Part shown: in pieces, positions 5,373 through 61,518 of the stretch
How the letters are laid out: each line of letters starts with the position of its first letter
Numbering within the stretch: the first letter of the stretch is position 1
DNA from: Modestobacter sp. VKM Ac-2982
GTDB taxonomy: Bacteria > Actinomycetota > Actinomycetes > Mycobacteriales > Geodermatophilaceae
Assembly: GCF_026967935.1 (NCBI RefSeq)
Contig: NZ_JAPVBL010000004.1
Location: 496,001 to 560,000, forward strand
Length of the DNA stretch: 64,000 nucleotides
Direction of reading: 5' to 3'
The notes under the pieces: generated by a model
What the model saw: the letters and a program-made list of their open reading frames with translations, nothing else
The model's database searches: none
What the model was told of the DNA's origin: nothing
Program-made: the position numbers and the translations under genes

Positions 5373-6821
5373 TCAGCTGCGCGCGGCGCCCAGGCCCAGC
5401 ACCGCCGCCAGCCCCAGCGCGCTGCGCGGGGCGTACGGGGTCCGCCACAGGCCGCCGTGTGCGGCGGCGTGCGCCTCGTCCTGCCAGGGGTGCTGCTGCG
5501 CGGGGCCACCGCCGGTGTGCAGGTCGTGCACCAGCAGCGCCGCCATCAGCACGTTCGCCGTCGCCGGCTCGAACACCTCCACCCCGAAGCGGTGGGCACC
5601 GGCGTAGGCGGCGGCCAGGGCCCGGTTCTTGACGACCGAGCGGGTGCGGGTGGGCGGGGCGACGTTCATCGACACGGTGCTGCCCGCCTCCCGGGCCACC
5701 GCGGCACGCCAGCGCTGCAGCCGCTTGGCCAGGGCGTAGTTCGGCCCCTGCTGCGGCACGAGGCTGTCGGCGATGCCCGGGTCGGTGCCCGGCACGTACG
5801 CCCGGCGCAGCAACCGTCCGGCTGACAGCGTGCGCAGCGGCCGGCCCACCAGCTTCGCCGTCCGTGGCCGGGAGGCGTAGGCGGCGACGGAGAAGTCGAC
5901 GGCCTCGCCGGGCACCGCGAAGACGTCGGTCGGGGTGGCGAGAAAGGCGAGCGCCAGGTCGGGGCGGGCGCCGGTCAGCCGCCGGGTGAGCGTGTCGACG
6001 GCCGTCGAGACGCGGACGTTGGTCGCGCCGTCGGCGTAGACGTAGTTGCCCAGCACCGGGGACCCCGGGAGGGCGGCGAGCCAGTCGGCGACCGCGGGCA
6101 CCTCGGTGATCAGGTCGGCGCCGGCTGCGTCGTCCACCCCGACCGGCGTGAGCAGCGTGCCCGCGCCGCGCCGGGCGGTCTCGTGGACCCGCTCCCACAA
6201 CTGCGGCCGCGGCAGGTCGACGGCGGCGACCCGGGCGCCCCAGCGCAGCAGCGCCGTCAGCGGCCCCATCTCCGCGCCGGCCCCCAGCACCGCGACCGTG
6301 TGGTCGGGCAGGGCCAGCCACTCGGGGTGGTCGGCGACGGTGCGCACCGCGTCGGCGCAGCTCGGCTCGATCACCCCGGCGTCGACCCAGGCGACCAGCC
6401 GGCGGTGCAGGTCGTCCCCGCGCAGCCGGGTGCCGCGGTACGGCAGCGACAGCTCCCGCTCGGGCTCGGCCTCCCCGGCCAGCTCCACGGTGCGCAGCGG
6501 ACGGGCCGGCGGTGCGGTCTGCAGCACGCCGAGGTCGGTCTCGCCGTCCGGCCCGGCCACCCGCATCCGGGCGTGCAGCGAGTCCAGTCCGGCACCGGCG
6601 ATCTGCAGCGCTGCGGCCCGGGAGCTCAGCCCCGCCTCCACCGTGCGGCGCAGGTGCGTCAGGTAGCCGGCCCGCCAGTTGGTCTCCTGCTCAGCGGCCC
6701 GCGCCCCCGTCGGGTCGACCGGCCGCAGGGCGTCGGCGACGACCGACCGGCCGAGCGTGGCGGTGCTGCGCCGGCCGTCGGGCCCGGCCGGGAAGACGAC
6801 TCCGCGCTGATCCTCGGTCAC
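5373..6821 (-). CDS. Uncharacterised protein with Rossmann-like nucleotide-binding motif
   Basis: This 482-residue protein is not recognised as a named family. The centre contains HTVAVLGAGAEMGPLTALLRWG followed by a short segment ending AAVDLPRP, resembling the glycine-rich loop and second-strand acid of a Rossmann fold that binds NAD(P) or SAM. No signal peptide is apparent. The last ~20 residues are hydrophobic (RSALGLAAVLGLGA) and may contact the membrane. It is monocistronic, with the small antitoxin-like gene next upstream on the same strand. A dehydrogenase-like role is possible but unproven. Confidence 0.7.
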   Translation of the reverse strand: MTEDQRGVVFPAGPDGRRSTATLGRSVVADALRPVDPTGARAAEQETNWRAGYLTHLRRTVEAGLSSRAAALQIAGAGLDSLHARMRVAGPDGETDLGVLQTAPPARPLRTVELAGEAEPERELSLPYRGTRLRGDDLHRRLVAWVDAGVIEPSCADAVRTVADHPEWLALPDHTVAVLGAGAEMGPLTALLRWGARVAAVDLPRPQLWERVHETARRGAGTLLTPVGVDDAAGADLITEVPAVADWLAALPGSPVLGNYVYADGATNVRVSTAVDTLTRRLTGARPDLALAFLATPTDVFAVPGEAVDFSVAAYASRPRTAKLVGRPLRTLSAGRLLRRAYVPGTDPGIADSLVPQQGPNYALAKRLQRWRAAVAREAGSTVSMNVAPPTRTRSVVKNRALAAAYAGAHRFGVEVFEPATANVLMAALLVHDLHTGGGPAQQHPWQDEAHAAAHGGLWRTPYAPRSALGLAAVLGLGAARS

Positions 6822-6893
6822 GGGCCGATCCTGCCCGACCCGACCCGGGGACGGCGGCCGAGGCTGCCGGGCCCCAGCCGCCGACCACCTCGA

Positions 6894-7067
6894 CTACTGG
6901 TTGCCGATCTTGCCGTCGGCGGCGTCCCGACCCTTGTCGATCTGCGCGTCGTGGGTGCCACCGGTCTTCTTGTCGGCGAACTGCTCGCCCTTGTCCAGCG
7001 CCGAGTCGCTGGCCTTCTCACCCTTGTCGCTGTTCAGGGCGCCCTTGGCCTTGTCCATCATGCTCAC
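6894..7067 (-). CDS. Small MT0933/Rv0909-like antitoxin-family protein
   Basis: A 57-residue, very hydrophilic protein (start GTG at 7067 with AGGGGG six bases upstream; ATG codons at 7061 and 7058 are alternatives). It is built of Lys/Asp/Gly-rich repeats (MMDKAKGALNSDKGEKASD ... GTHDAQIDKGRDAADGKIG). This composition matches the MT0933-like antitoxin family of actinobacteria, where M. tuberculosis Rv0909 pairs with the toxin Rv0910. No SRPBCC-type toxin partner is adjacent; the nearest SRPBCC protein is 7 kb away. The protein may instead be a stress-related orphan. Confidence 0.65.
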   Translation of the reverse strand: MSMMDKAKGALNSDKGEKASDSALDKGEQFADKKTGGTHDAQIDKGRDAADGKIGNQ

Positions 7068-7146
7068 GGTGTTCCCCCTGGGATCCGGTCACGCCGGCGG
7101 CGCGACTCGCCCCCGGCGATGCCCGCCGACCGGTGCCGCCAACCGC

Positions 7147-58093: not shown

Positions 58094-58498
58094 GTGTTGT
58101 GTCAGAGCACCTACGCACTGGACTACATCGACGGACGGCGCGCAGCGGTCGAGGCCCGCGTCGCCGCCTACCGGGAGCTGGCCGCCGCCACCGAGCCGGC
58201 CGCCCTGCGCGAGTTCGAGCCCGTCTTCTTCAACGACCTGGTCGTGGTGCTGGAGAACTGGTTCGTGCACCGCGGCCGGGGCATCGAGGGCTCGGACGGC
58301 AACGCGCTGAACGAGGTGCGGCTGATCGCCGAGTCGCTGGTGCACGGCGGCAGGATGATCGCCGACAAGCACGTCCGGCTGGACCCGGCGCGCACCGTGC
58401 TCAAGTACCGGGTGGGCGACGAGATCGCCGTCCGCGAGGCCGACTTCACCGCGTTGGCGAAGGCCTTCTTCGCGGAGCTGGAGAGCCGGTACCTGTAG
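58094..58498 (+). CDS. Uncharacterised conserved 134-residue protein
   Basis: A helical soluble protein beginning [29 protein letters not shown] and containing [53 protein letters not shown] lies shortly before the GTG, giving strong translation initiation. The fold looks all-alpha. Its well-conserved look and aromatic/charged pattern suggest a real cytoplasmic protein, but no function is known to me. Confidence 0.72.
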
Positions 58499-58510
58499 CG
58501 CCGGCCCGGC

Positions 58511-59131
58511 TCAGCGGCTCTGCAGCGCGTCCAGGGCCACGGCCATCGCGGCGGCGACCCGGAAGTCCAGCCGCGGGTCGGGCACCGTGACGGTGTAGCG
58601 GTCCCGGATGGCCTTCTTCCGCTCGCTGATCAGCACCGGGGCCCCGGTCGCGGTGTCGACGAAGTCGAAGTGGAAGACGAAGGGCACCGGGACGTCGCCG
58701 ACGACGGGGAGCGCGGTCCAGACCCGGCGCACGACCGCGAGGGCCGGTCGGCGCTCGCGGCCGACCGCCTCGATGCCCGGGGCAGAGAGGGTCCAGGTCG
58801 AGCGGAGCAGGCTGGCCCCGAACTGCTTGCTGAACATGCCCAGCGGTGCACCGTGCTCGTCGAGGACGTCGTGCTGGGCCGAGACGTCCAGCCGCTGGCG
58901 GGCCTTGAAGGAGAAGACCGGGCGGCTCTTGGCCTCGTCGGCGTAGAAGACCACCTCCTCCTTCAGCTTCATCCGCTTCTGCTCGGCCAGCGCGAGCAGG
59001 TGGCCCTCGGAGCCGTCGGGCTGCACGGCCCGGATCTCGTAGCGGTTGACCATCATGGTGACCCGCTGCGAGACGAAGAAGGCAGGCACGACCATCGGGG
59101 CCGGCGGCTGGCCGAAGGGGGACGAGGTCAC
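58511..59131 (-). CDS. LURP-one-related / scramblase-like family protein
   Basis: A 206-residue protein with the beta-strand pattern of the LURP-one/phospholipid scramblase superfamily: NRYEIRAVQPDGSEGHLLALAEQKRMKLKEEVVFYADEAKSRPVFSFKARQRLDVSAQHDVLDEHGAPLG. The family has a 12-stranded barrel around a central helix. Its bacterial role is unknown. The start codon faces the retron RNA and reverse transcriptase across 100 bases. Confidence 0.82.
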   Translation of the reverse strand: MTSSPFGQPPAPMVVPAFFVSQRVTMMVNRYEIRAVQPDGSEGHLLALAEQKRMKLKEEVVFYADEAKSRPVFSFKARQRLDVSAQHDVLDEHGAPLGMFSKQFGASLLRSTWTLSAPGIEAVGRERRPALAVVRRVWTALPVVGDVPVPFVFHFDFVDTATGAPVLISERKKAIRDRYTVTVPDPRLDFRVAAAMAVALDALQSR

Positions 59132-59232
59132 AGCGGTGCTCCTGGGTGGGTCGGGTGGTGCGGGCAGCCCATCCTGGGGCACGACGGGTGCCTGTGTCCC
59201 GGATCCGTCTCCCGGCCCAGCCACTACGGTGG

Positions 59233-59401
59233 CCGGGTGCACGGCGGGGCGGGCAGGACGATCGGCAGCAGCCGATCACCCCGGGGCAACCCCGGGGCAT
59301 CGTGAGCAGGTCGGGCATGGCGTCATGAGCCGCGCTGTGCGCTCCGCGCACCAGGCGGCGCCTCCAGCGAGGAGCGGCTGGCCGCCCCGCCGTGCACCCG
59401 G
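59233..59401 (+). ncRNA. Putative retron msr-msd RNA (a1/a2 inverted repeats)
   Basis: A 169-base segment bounded by a perfect 20-bp inverted repeat (59233-59252 and 59382-59401) sits directly before the reverse transcriptase gene, as msr-msd does before ret in retrons. Inside, a GATCGGC-AGCA-GCCGATC hairpin (59260-59277) and an 8-bp CCCCGGGG-CAA-CCCCGGGG hairpin (59279-59297) fit the msr part. The msd part would hold a GCCGC/GCGGC plus GTGCGC-TCC-GCGCAC stem (59329-59359) and a CTCC-AGCGA-GGAG hairpin (59362-59374). A TACGGT -10-like hexamer (59225-59230) would place the RNA start near a1. The branching G and exact msr/msd border cannot be fixed by eye. Confidence 0.72.
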
Positions 59402-59410
59402 GAGGTCGCG

Positions 59411-60760
59411 GTGACCGCCGAGCGGCAGGCCGCGACCACCGCCGCAGCGATCGCGACCGCGCTGCTGGCCGGCCCGTGGCGGCGGCGGGACATGGTCCGC
59501 CGGGTGGCGGTGGCGCTGGGCCAGGCCCGCGCCCGCACCTGGGTGGGCACACTGGTCGGGGAGGTCCAGACGGTCTGCCCCACCGCCCCGGTCGACCGGC
59601 CGCGGGAGCTGGCCCGCGTCGTCCGGACGACCCAGGGGTGGGAACGCGGGCAGTCACAGCGACCACTCCCCCGGGCCGTCCGGTGGGAACCGGTGCCGAC
59701 CGCGCTGGCCTGGCGCCGGTGGCCGGTCGCCGACCTGCCTGACCAGGCCGCGGTCGCCCGGCTGCTCGACGTCGACGCCGGCGAGCTGGCGTGGTTCGCC
59801 GACGCCCGCCGGCTGGAGCGGACGTCCGGTGAGGCGCTGCGGCACTACCGGTGGCGGGTGGTGCCGCGCCCGGCGGGGGTCCGGCTGCTCGCCGCGCCCA
59901 AGCCCCGGCTCAAGGAGGCGCAGCGGCGGGTGCTGCGACACGTGCTCGACCGCATCCCGGTGCACGACGCCGCGCACGGCTGCGTGCCCGGACGCTCGGT
60001 GCGCACCGCGGTCGCCCCGCACGCCGGGTCCGCCGTCGTGCTGCGGATGGACCTGGAGGCGTTCTTCGCCAGCGTCGCCGCCGGGCGGGTGCACGGGCTG
60101 CTGCTGGGCGTCGCCGGTCTGCCCGAGCCGGTGGCGCACGTGCTCACCGGCCTGGTGACGACGGTGCTGCCGACCGAGGTGTGGCGGCACGTCCCTGCCC
60201 CGGACGGGATCGAGGCGCGGGACCGGCACCGGCGGCTGGGTCAGCGGCTGGCAGTGCCGCACCTGCCGCAGGGCGCTCCGACGTCCCCGGCGCTGGCCAA
60301 CCTGGTCTGCCACCGCCTCGACCGCCGGCTGACCGGACTCGCCACGGCCGCCGGTGCCACCTACACCCGCTACGTCGACGACCTGACCTTCAGCGGGGAC
60401 CGGCGGATCGCCCGCGACCGGTTCGCCGCCCTGGTCACCGCGGTGGTCGAGGAGGAGGGCTTCCGGGTGAACGCGGCGAAGACCTCGGCCACCAGCGCCG
60501 CCCGTCGGCAGTCGGTGCTGGGCACGGTGGTCAACGACCACCCCACCCTGCCGCGGCCGGAGCGGGACGCGCTGCGGGCGCTGCTGCACAACTGCGCCGT
60601 CCACGGCTGGACGACCCAGACCCGGGGCCACGACCCGGCCACCTTCCGCGACCACGTGCTGGGGCGGGTGGCCTGGGCCGCCTCGGTCGACCCGGGGTTC
60701 GGCGCCCGGCTGCACACCCTGGCCGACCGGATCGACTGGTCGGCTGCCCCGCCCTCGTAG
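59411..60760 (+). CDS. Retron-type reverse transcriptase with N-terminal extension
   Basis: A 449-residue reverse transcriptase. RT core from about residue 135: APKPRLKEAQRRVL, HDAAHGCVPGRSVRTAV, first catalytic Asp214 in RMDLEAFFASV, LPQGAPTSPALANLVCHRLDRRL, catalytic Y321-V-D-D324 in TRYVDDLTFSGD, and VLGTVVNDHP in the place of the retron 'VTG' motif. The first ~125 residues are an extra Arg/Ala-rich helical domain, making it longer than the ~320-residue E. coli retron enzymes and closer in size to myxobacterial Mx162-type ones. No maturase or endonuclease domain follows, arguing against a group II intron. GGGAGG (59400-59405) overlaps the a2 repeat, five bases before the GTG. Confidence 0.9.
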   Translation: MTAERQAATTAAAIATALLAGPWRRRDMVRRVAVALGQARARTWVGTLVGEVQTVCPTAPVDRPRELARVVRTTQGWERGQSQRPLPRAVRWEPVPTALAWRRWPVADLPDQAAVARLLDVDAGELAWFADARRLERTSGEALRHYRWRVVPRPAGVRLLAAPKPRLKEAQRRVLRHVLDRIPVHDAAHGCVPGRSVRTAVAPHAGSAVVLRMDLEAFFASVAAGRVHGLLLGVAGLPEPVAHVLTGLVTTVLPTEVWRHVPAPDGIEARDRHRRLGQRLAVPHLPQGAPTSPALANLVCHRLDRRLTGLATAAGATYTRYVDDLTFSGDRRIARDRFAALVTAVVEEEGFRVNAAKTSATSAARRQSVLGTVVNDHPTLPRPERDALRALLHNCAVHGWTTQTRGHDPATFRDHVLGRVAWAASVDPGFGARLHTLADRIDWSAAPPS

Positions 60761-60786: not shown

Positions 60787-61518
60787 ATGAGCGCCCGGAT
60801 CGAGGAGCTGGACTGGAGCCCGACGCCGATCGGCGAGGTGAGCCTGCGACGGCGGCGGGACCCGGTGACCGGACTCGACGTCTTCGAGGTGAAGCTCGGG
60901 GACGAGTTCCTCATGTCCACCCAGTTCACCGTGGCCGAGGTGGCGGTGGCCCGGCTCGCCCTGGCGCGGCTCGACGGGCCCGCCCCCGGTGCGCCCGGGC
61001 TGGACGTCGCCGTGGGCGGGCTCGGGCTCGGCTACACCGCGGAGGCGGTCCTGGCCGACCCGCGGGTGCGGGAGCTGGTGGTCGTCGACCTGCTCGAGCC
61101 GGTGATCGGCTGGCACCAGCGTGGGCTGGTGCCGGTCGGCCCCACGCTCACCGCCGACCCCCGCTGCCGGCTCGTGCACGGGGACTTCTTCGCGATGGCC
61201 GAGGGCGCCGGCTTCGACCCCGCGACGCCCGGCCGGGTGTTCGACGCCGTCGTCGTCGACATCGACCACTCACCGCAGCACCTGCTCGCCGACGGCAGCG
61301 CCGGCTTCTACGGGATCGCCGGCACCCGGCGGCTGGCCCGGCACCTGCGGCCGGGAGGCGTGTTCTCGCTGTGGTCGAACGACCCGCCCGAGGACGGCTA
61401 CCTCTCCGTCCTGGCCGAGGTCTTCACCGACGTCGCCGCCGAGGTCGTCAGCTTCCCCAACCCCCTGCAGGACCGGCCGGCCACGAACACGGTCTACCTC
61501 GGCACGAAGCCGCGCTGA
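60787..61518 (+). CDS. Spermidine synthase-like SAM-dependent protein
   Basis: A 243-residue protein with the aminopropyltransferase/methyltransferase fold. VAVGGLGLGYTAEAVLADPRVRELVVVDLLEPVIGWH is the SAM-binding loop with acidic second-strand end, and DAVVVDIDHSPQHLL corresponds to the active-site region of spermidine synthases. It lacks the full gatekeeper set, so it may be a methyltransferase or non-classical synthase. It starts 26 bases after the reverse transcriptase stop and is probably co-transcribed, but a functional link is unproven. Confidence 0.85.
   Translation: MSARIEELDWSPTPIGEVSLRRRRDPVTGLDVFEVKLGDEFLMSTQFTVAEVAVARLALARLDGPAPGAPGLDVAVGGLGLGYTAEAVLADPRVRELVVVDLLEPVIGWHQRGLVPVGPTLTADPRCRLVHGDFFAMAEGAGFDPATPGRVFDAVVVDIDHSPQHLLADGSAGFYGIAGTRRLARHLRPGGVFSLWSNDPPEDGYLSVLAEVFTDVAAEVVSFPNPLQDRPATNTVYLGTKPR

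Follow-up and report, generated by a model that had tools for sequence, protein, structure and literature searches.

Experimentally characterised retrons, as listed in the consulted sections of a 2022 review, come from Delta-, Gamma- and Alphaproteobacteria and from Bacteroides (PMC8867640). Bioinformatic surveys have already placed putative retrons in Actinobacteria (PMC6868368), and the word retron occurs in two Rhodococcus genome papers (PMC7276702, PMC6498646). The actinobacterial locus described here is very probably a retron, one that would produce msDNA if it behaves as known retrons do. Its reverse transcriptase (RT) resembles those of Ec86, Ec67 and Ec73 in sequence, in fold and in the positions of regions X and Y (Ec73 is not among the best 50 Foldseek matches), with identities of 24% to Ec86 and 26% to Ec67 in the Foldseek alignments. 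Unlike these three, the RT lacks the N of region X and carries an extra N-terminal extension, and no effector gene or fused effector domain was recognised at the locus.

Myxobacterial retrons such as Mx162 and Sa163 are not known to have a linked effector. By description, which is the level at which they are compared here, these retrons share with the locus an N-terminal extension of the RT and inheritance within a lineage (PMC6868368).

By profile, the RT is closest to two PADLOC-DB families, RT_other (PDLC02949; 1.6e-164, 547 bits) and RT_outgroup (PDLC03740, described as a retron; 7.2e-154, 511 bits), both matched over most of the length. These families are protein models only, and their descriptions name no type or effector. 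The two models also match L118, L019 and L056, the other three members of the clade that were scanned. Judged by its sequence, the RT belongs to this RT_other/RT_outgroup family. The next best PADLOC profile is RT_XIII (5.2e-86). Type XIII retrons are sister to the clade in a quick tree (SH-aLRT 85), a relation that a more careful tree leaves unresolved. The type XIII locus L121 keeps NAXXH, unlike the RT described here, and has no match to the RNA model presented below at E 1, as is also the case for the type III loci L068-L071.

The locus lies in a 64,000-nucleotide stretch of Modestobacter sp. VKM Ac-2982 DNA, which at its full length is called the window. The original prediction had placed a YVDD RT at 59411-60760, and this was confirmed (GTG start, 449 aa). 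The nearest named relatives of the enzyme are the RTs of Modestobacter sp. VKM Ac-2984 (95% identity) and Modestobacter caceresii (93%). The features of the RT gene are as follows.

59411-60760, + strand: retron reverse transcriptase, 449 aa, GTG start (PADLOC, Pfam, PDB, Foldseek)
59411-59725, + strand: N-terminal helical extension, residues 1-105, five helices in the predicted model (pLDDT 83.5)
60008-60022, + strand: retron region X, AVAPH replacing NAXXH, aligned with known retron RTs
60371-60382, + strand: catalytic YVDD; Y321, D323 and D324 are invariant in the 27 sequences of alignment A3
60515-60523, + strand: start of retron region Y, VLG replacing VTG (VTG in clade members L019 and L022)

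Regions X and Y and their variants are defined as in the consulted sections of PMC6868368. There, NAXXH is present in 14 of 16 validated retrons and absent from two, so the motif is not strictly required, and the VTG of region Y likewise deviates in 2 of the 16. The region X position reads NAYKH in Ec67, NALLH in Ec73 and NAALH in the type XIII RT. His 204 of region X is invariant across A3. In all 27 sequences the N is replaced and the H kept, often as APH or RPH, and this form of region X is possibly a signature of the clade. One A3 row (L046) is out of frame in its C-terminal part; the alignment, with this row included, was used for the class-genome, PDB-profile and viral-contig searches and for the structure model. 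The dN/dS of the RT against 11 relatives is 0.22-0.37, which at the level of coding sequence indicates that the retron unit is under purifying selection.

Just upstream of the RT, the original prediction had reported two exact 20-base arms separated by a 129-base spacer and had taken them as the ends of an RNA. Direct comparison confirmed the repeat, the arms at 59233-59252 and 59382-59401 being exact reverse complements, but not the ends: by comparison with relatives, the conserved RNA runs from 59237 to 59397. The outermost 4 bp of the exact arms (59233-59236 with 59398-59401) are not generally paired among relatives, and they sit 5' of the likely transcription start. At spacers of 20-250, the window contains a single inverted repeat whose exact arms reach 14 bp or more, namely this one. 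In 40 first-order Markov simulations of the window, the mean number of repeats was 0.55 for arms of at least 14 and 0.025 for arms of at least 16. The segment 59225-59415 has a folding energy of -129.5 kcal/mol, against -102.6 +/- 4.9 for shuffled sequences (z = -5.5). The elements of the RNA and its surroundings are listed below.

59225-59230, + strand: -10-like hexamer TACGGT, likely the -10 element of the retron transcript (TANNNT in homologues)
59233-59252, + strand: left exact 20-base arm, outer 4 bases mostly unpaired in relatives
59382-59401, + strand: right exact 20-base arm
59237-59397, + strand: retron non-coding RNA (msr-msd), 161 nt from the probable start at 59237 (alignment, model R1)
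59237-59256, + strand: a1 arm, conserved part, 18 pairs with a2
59378-59397, + strand: a2 arm, conserved part, 18 pairs with a1
59254-59257, + strand: CAGG, candidate for the branching site, with 59256 the most likely priming G (AG after a1 in homologues)
59260-59277, + strand: msr hairpin 1, 6 pairs, 6/6 changed on both sides
59279-59297, + strand: msr hairpin 2, CCCCGGGG-CAA-CCCCGGGG, the best conserved element in the RNA family
59298-59377, + strand: msd region, after hairpin 2 and ahead of a2; probable template, at most about 80 nt
59329-59359, + strand: msd hairpin with conserved GCGCTCCGCGC tip, two helices in both alignments

Of 47 homologous loci, 39 have TANNNT in the 22 nt before the RNA (the chance per 22-mer in the window is 0.19%), and the eight loci without it all fall among the 24 outside a 23-sequence Geodermatophilaceae set. 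No clear -35 element was seen by eye upstream of the RNA. The probable transcription start, 59237, is 6 nt past the hexamer, and the RNA is immediately upstream of the RT. From start to the end of a2, the RNA measures 160-161 nt in the 23 aligned Geodermatophilaceae sequences, the window included, and 98.6% of a1/a2 cells are paired across them. AG follows a1 in most homologues, the motif reading CAGG here and, at other loci, often GAGA. The branching motifs named for validated retrons are TAGC, CAGC, CAGA, GAGC and ACGC, and CAGG is absent from these five in the consulted sections (PMC6868368). In the wide alignment introduced below, 91.8% of the cells of msr hairpin 1 and 99.5% of those of hairpin 2 are paired. 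An automatic pick of hairpin 2 found, in 41 of 47 loci, an NNA triloop closed by 8-11 bp, mostly with a GGGG-NNA-CCCC core; the other six picks are another hairpin or have a different loop. Both-side changes are found in 8 of the 9 pairs of the msd hairpin in the wide alignment.

The anatomy and the -10-like element suggest a transcript starting at about 59237 that would carry both the msr-msd RNA and the RT. Its ends would pair as a1/a2, and the RT would bind the folded RNA, presumably aided by the conserved msr hairpin 2. By analogy with retron biochemistry, the RT would prime on the 2'-OH of a G just inside a1, most likely that at 59256, and copy up to about 80 nt of the msd into single-stranded DNA, giving a branched msDNA. 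The putative unit thus comprises a promoter, the RNA and the RT within about 1.5 kb. Its most likely role is that of a self-contained RT-msDNA complex acting without a linked effector. The effector's part would then be taken by the N-terminal helical domain of the RT or by a host protein encoded elsewhere. That the N-terminal domain is the effector is a possibility on the unlikely side. Residues 1-105 have no PDB fold match at E <=0.001 (best E 1.3), and PADLOC, Pfam and fold searches recognised no effector domain on the RT. Phage defence is the leading guess for the role, held tentatively, and a housekeeping role or an element without benefit to the host may apply instead.

The alternative that survives best is an ordinary three-part retron. 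Retrons typically comprise an effector, as stated in the consulted part of PMC12548924. Here the effector could be encoded elsewhere in the genome, by the gene at 60787-61518 behind the RT or by the divergent gene upstream (58511-59242), a reading that we consider possible and rather improbable. The downstream gene shares the strand of the RT, begins 26 bp after it and looks methyltransferase- or spermidine-synthase-like by eye only; it follows the RT closely in the window, in L031-L033 and in L047/L097. However, tblastn at E 1e-10 did not find it beside the RT in other loci, including those of Modestobacter L034-L039 and L075-L077. It has a weak match to PADLOC 'mad2' (E 9e-7) and none in Pfam, NCBIfam or PHROGs. 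PADLOC gave no match for the other two of the three neighbours scanned, and PHROGs none for two neighbours of the RT. The upstream gene has no Pfam match and is also present where the RT is missing, as in the genomes G004 and G014.

The wider comparison of neighbourhoods points the same way. Among the 51 loci scanned, five are without a recognised RT and 40 of the other 46 fall into 13 site groups; the remaining six share no flanking cluster and so stand outside the groups. Thirteen is at most a rough figure because broad families link some loci, and the gene caller used for the neighbourhoods misses some genes, such as 60787-61518 (checked by tblastn). No gene cluster within two genes of the RT occurs in more than 2 of the 13 site groups, and within five genes only one reaches 3 of 13. 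Pfam families for ten neighbours of distant loci comprise an exchanger, a methyltransferase, VanW, HAD twice and H-NS, with four neighbours without a family; the two HAD neighbours come from loci with similar RNAs (L094 and L119). The original prediction's suggestion of an anti-phage system finds no support here, as no effector gene is associated with the RT.

The next alternative, somewhat less probable still, is a housekeeping or neutral retron that makes msDNA and has no role in defence, an idea already raised for the vertically inherited retrons of myxobacteria. The lack of a linked effector fits this reading, as does the distribution within the genus, where 17 of 23 genomes match the RT (16 of the 18 that are at least 90% complete) and 14 of the 17 matching genomes hold the cassette in one neighbourhood. 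This site group has 15 rows, since L047 and L097 are the same genome. Within it, the cassette lies beyond the upstream divergent gene (c4, 58511-59128) in the window (58094-60760), L031-L033, L037 and L077, and further off in L047/L097. In L034-L036, L038, L039, L075 and L076, it lies between c4 and its partner, c3. Either the cassette or the c4 gene moved, or two insertions happened. Mobile elements carry few relatives. Six of 72,556 plasmid records match at E 1e-20; of the four examined, those of Burkholderia, Tsukamurella and Dietzia have the RNA and that of Methylobacterium does not. There is one weak match among 50,697 phage records, and viral contigs hold distant RTs only (best 35% identity, among the best 80 of 167 relatives). 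In myxobacteria, retrons are inherited vertically, as described in the consulted sections of PMC6868368.

Against a housekeeping role, the unit occupies many different sites across the wider group. The cassette is elsewhere in G017 and G003 (L074 and L098), a remnant stands beside c4 in G002, and two Geodermatophilus locus groups and Nocardioides have it at other sites. The RT is also broken or lost in some species, being in pieces in G001 (L097) and G003 (L098) and a remnant in G002 (L109) and G034 (L099), so that it is dispensable. In the class, the distribution is patchy, with 18 of 394 genomes matching at E 1e-30 (four candidates scored per genome); for four of these (L068-L071), the top PADLOC score is that of type III. 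The many sites, the losses and the patchiness together look more like a dispensable or defence element.

Further observations concern the same set of loci. The RT is broken or a remnant in L045 (Geodermatophilus obscurus) and L096 as well. A recognisable RNA persists beside some broken RTs, for example in L045, L047 and L098. Outside the actinobacteria, a Burkholderia cenocepacia replicon (L118, about 5603-7131) encodes a 449-aa RT of the clade, and its RNA is recognisable by the covariance model (E 0.012 and 0.004 in two runs). A search of 149 genomes from the phylum for the St85 and RT_XIII families gave matches in the genome of the window only.

The RNA is kept together with the RT. RNAalifold on the 23 Geodermatophilaceae sequences returned a1/a2, two msr hairpins and the msd hairpin, with 41 pairs. 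In this narrow alignment, 98.5% of cells are paired and 4 pairs are changed on both sides, a number not above shuffles (308 of 500 equally high). Cells with double changes number 23, against 9.2 in shuffles, and the covariation score is 0.130, against 0.100; none of 500 shuffles was as high for either measure. A covariance model (R1) trained on the 23 RNAs matches an RNA upstream of the RT in 26 of 27 loci, three of the 27 being in the training set. The matched new loci (23 of 24, E 9e-20 to 0.004) include Nocardioides, Saccharothrix, Tsukamurella, Dietzia and Burkholderia. The one missed, L062, shows by eye an RNA of 164 nt whose outer stem is a perfect 12 bp. One extra match is the reverse strand (mirror) of L034, and the RNA of L014, missed by the pattern used to locate the RNAs, was recovered by the model. 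A larger model run covered 53 sources, with duplicates among them.

The 27 matches make up the wide alignment, with 95.5% of cells paired and both-side changes in 35 of the 41 pairs. Its covariation score is 0.627, against 0.177 +/- 0.012 in shuffles (0 of 500 as high). Because its rows were fitted to the structure of the model, this alignment is biased towards pairing, and one of the rows is the reverse-strand mirror. However, sliding the partners lowered the score to 0.05-0.12, which argues that neither the fitting nor the mirror row explains the pairing. An alignment-free test agrees. In 23 of 47 loci, hand-picked to spread over lineages, native a1/a2 arms pair with a mean of -41.1 kcal/mol, against -25.3 kcal/mol for arms swapped between loci, and the native pair is the strongest in 18 of the 23 (exceptions L015, L066, L050, L022 and L118). 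Thus, the RT is directly preceded by a1/a2 ends kept by covariation, as expected of a retron. It is well supported, at the level of sequence comparison, that this msr-msd RNA family is kept in many actinobacteria.

A third reading, which is very improbable, sees in the repeat and hairpins not a retron RNA but an attenuator or a short leaderless coding region ahead of the RT. A GTG at the probable transcription start opens a 22-codon frame (59237-59302) in most Modestobacter rows, including 12 of the 14 Modestobacter-group rows examined first, and a stop-free frame of 53-58 codons runs through the RNA in many other homologues. However, the frame varies, a one-base deletion shifts it in L038 and L039, and many distant loci are without GTG at the start. 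What is kept is the pairing rather than the frame, as the double changes of the wide alignment indicate. The GTG-opened frame is probably a chance product of GC-rich DNA.

In a careful tree of 33 rows, the 19 clade members form one group (100/99), and a split at 100/100 separates three group II introns, DGR and DRT sequences having been left out. Ec67, Ec73 and other retron types are unresolved among themselves on long branches. A quick tree of 43 rows recovers the clade, including the Burkholderia row, with an SH-aLRT of 99. The YXDD-bearing RT thus groups with retron RTs in a tree of retron RTs and group II introns. The closest PDB sequence by A3 profile is the retron Ec86 RT (1.3e-46). PHROGs returned a polymerase family and an RT only. 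In Foldseek, the first 18 matches of the full-length predicted model (pLDDT 84.1, pTM 0.64) are retron RTs, with modest TM-scores of 0.41-0.49 by query length; group II-type enzymes follow from rank 19, DRT2 at rank 25 and DGR at rank 30, the last two well below the retron RTs. The least probable reading, which takes the RT for an enzyme of group II intron, DGR or DRT type beside an unrelated repeat, can appeal to a generic RVT_1 domain (Pfam, 1e-17), to weak group II (2.4e-12), Drt2 (3.6e-9) and Drt3a (5.4e-7) matches far under cut-offs and to NCBIfam retron models that likewise match below theirs, against which stand RT_other and RT_outgroup scores of 547 and 511 bits versus 46.7 for group II (TIGR04416, cut-off 300), the tree, the fold matches and an RNA conserved together with the RT.

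The original prediction had named beforehand the results that would speak against a retron, namely homologous RTs without a conserved inverted repeat upstream, an RT placed outside the retron branch and a lack of covarying pairs in 59233-59401. Each was looked for and none was found. The repeat precedes the homologous RTs in 26 of 27 loci by covariance model and in the 27th by eye, the RT falls outside the group II introns in a tree without DGR sequences, and covariation in the segment is strong. The retron interpretation is therefore supported. Points that speak against it are the lost N of region X, the VLG of region Y, a CAGG branch motif outside the five named for validated retrons, the missing linked effector, the lack of an Rfam family and the modest TM-scores of the fold matches, together with the low number of doubly changed pairs in the narrow alignment and the breakage of the RT in some relatives.

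The claim that the retron was undescribed has to be divided. PADLOC-DB already models the RT clade as an unclassified retron, and so the RT clade itself is not new. For the RNA, the claim may hold within the literature searched. A description of this msr-msd family was not found among the titles and abstract openings searched, and Rfam matched no family, or gave chance matches only. PADLOC has separate msr-msd covariance models, according to the consulted part of PMC9252829; as far as searched, in a comparison made without those models, the RNA family is new. The numbered three-part types I-XIII have a linked or fused effector, which was not found here, and the retron is not filed under any of them.

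The interest of the locus is in its RNA family and its missing effector. A tentative and rather doubtful idea is that a large actinobacterial lineage with a Burkholderia offshoot runs its retron on one gene and one RNA, the N-terminal domain serving as built-in effector or sensor. If true, about 1.5 kb would hold RT, msDNA and effector together, and the retron type would be new. Speculatively, a retron this short and GC-rich, with a single gene, could serve DNA production in high-GC hosts. Because a linked effector is absent, the locus offers a clean case for asking what role an RT-msDNA complex has when no partner gene accompanies it. With a defined actinobacterial RNA family and a covariance model for it, msDNA can be sought directly in soil strains.
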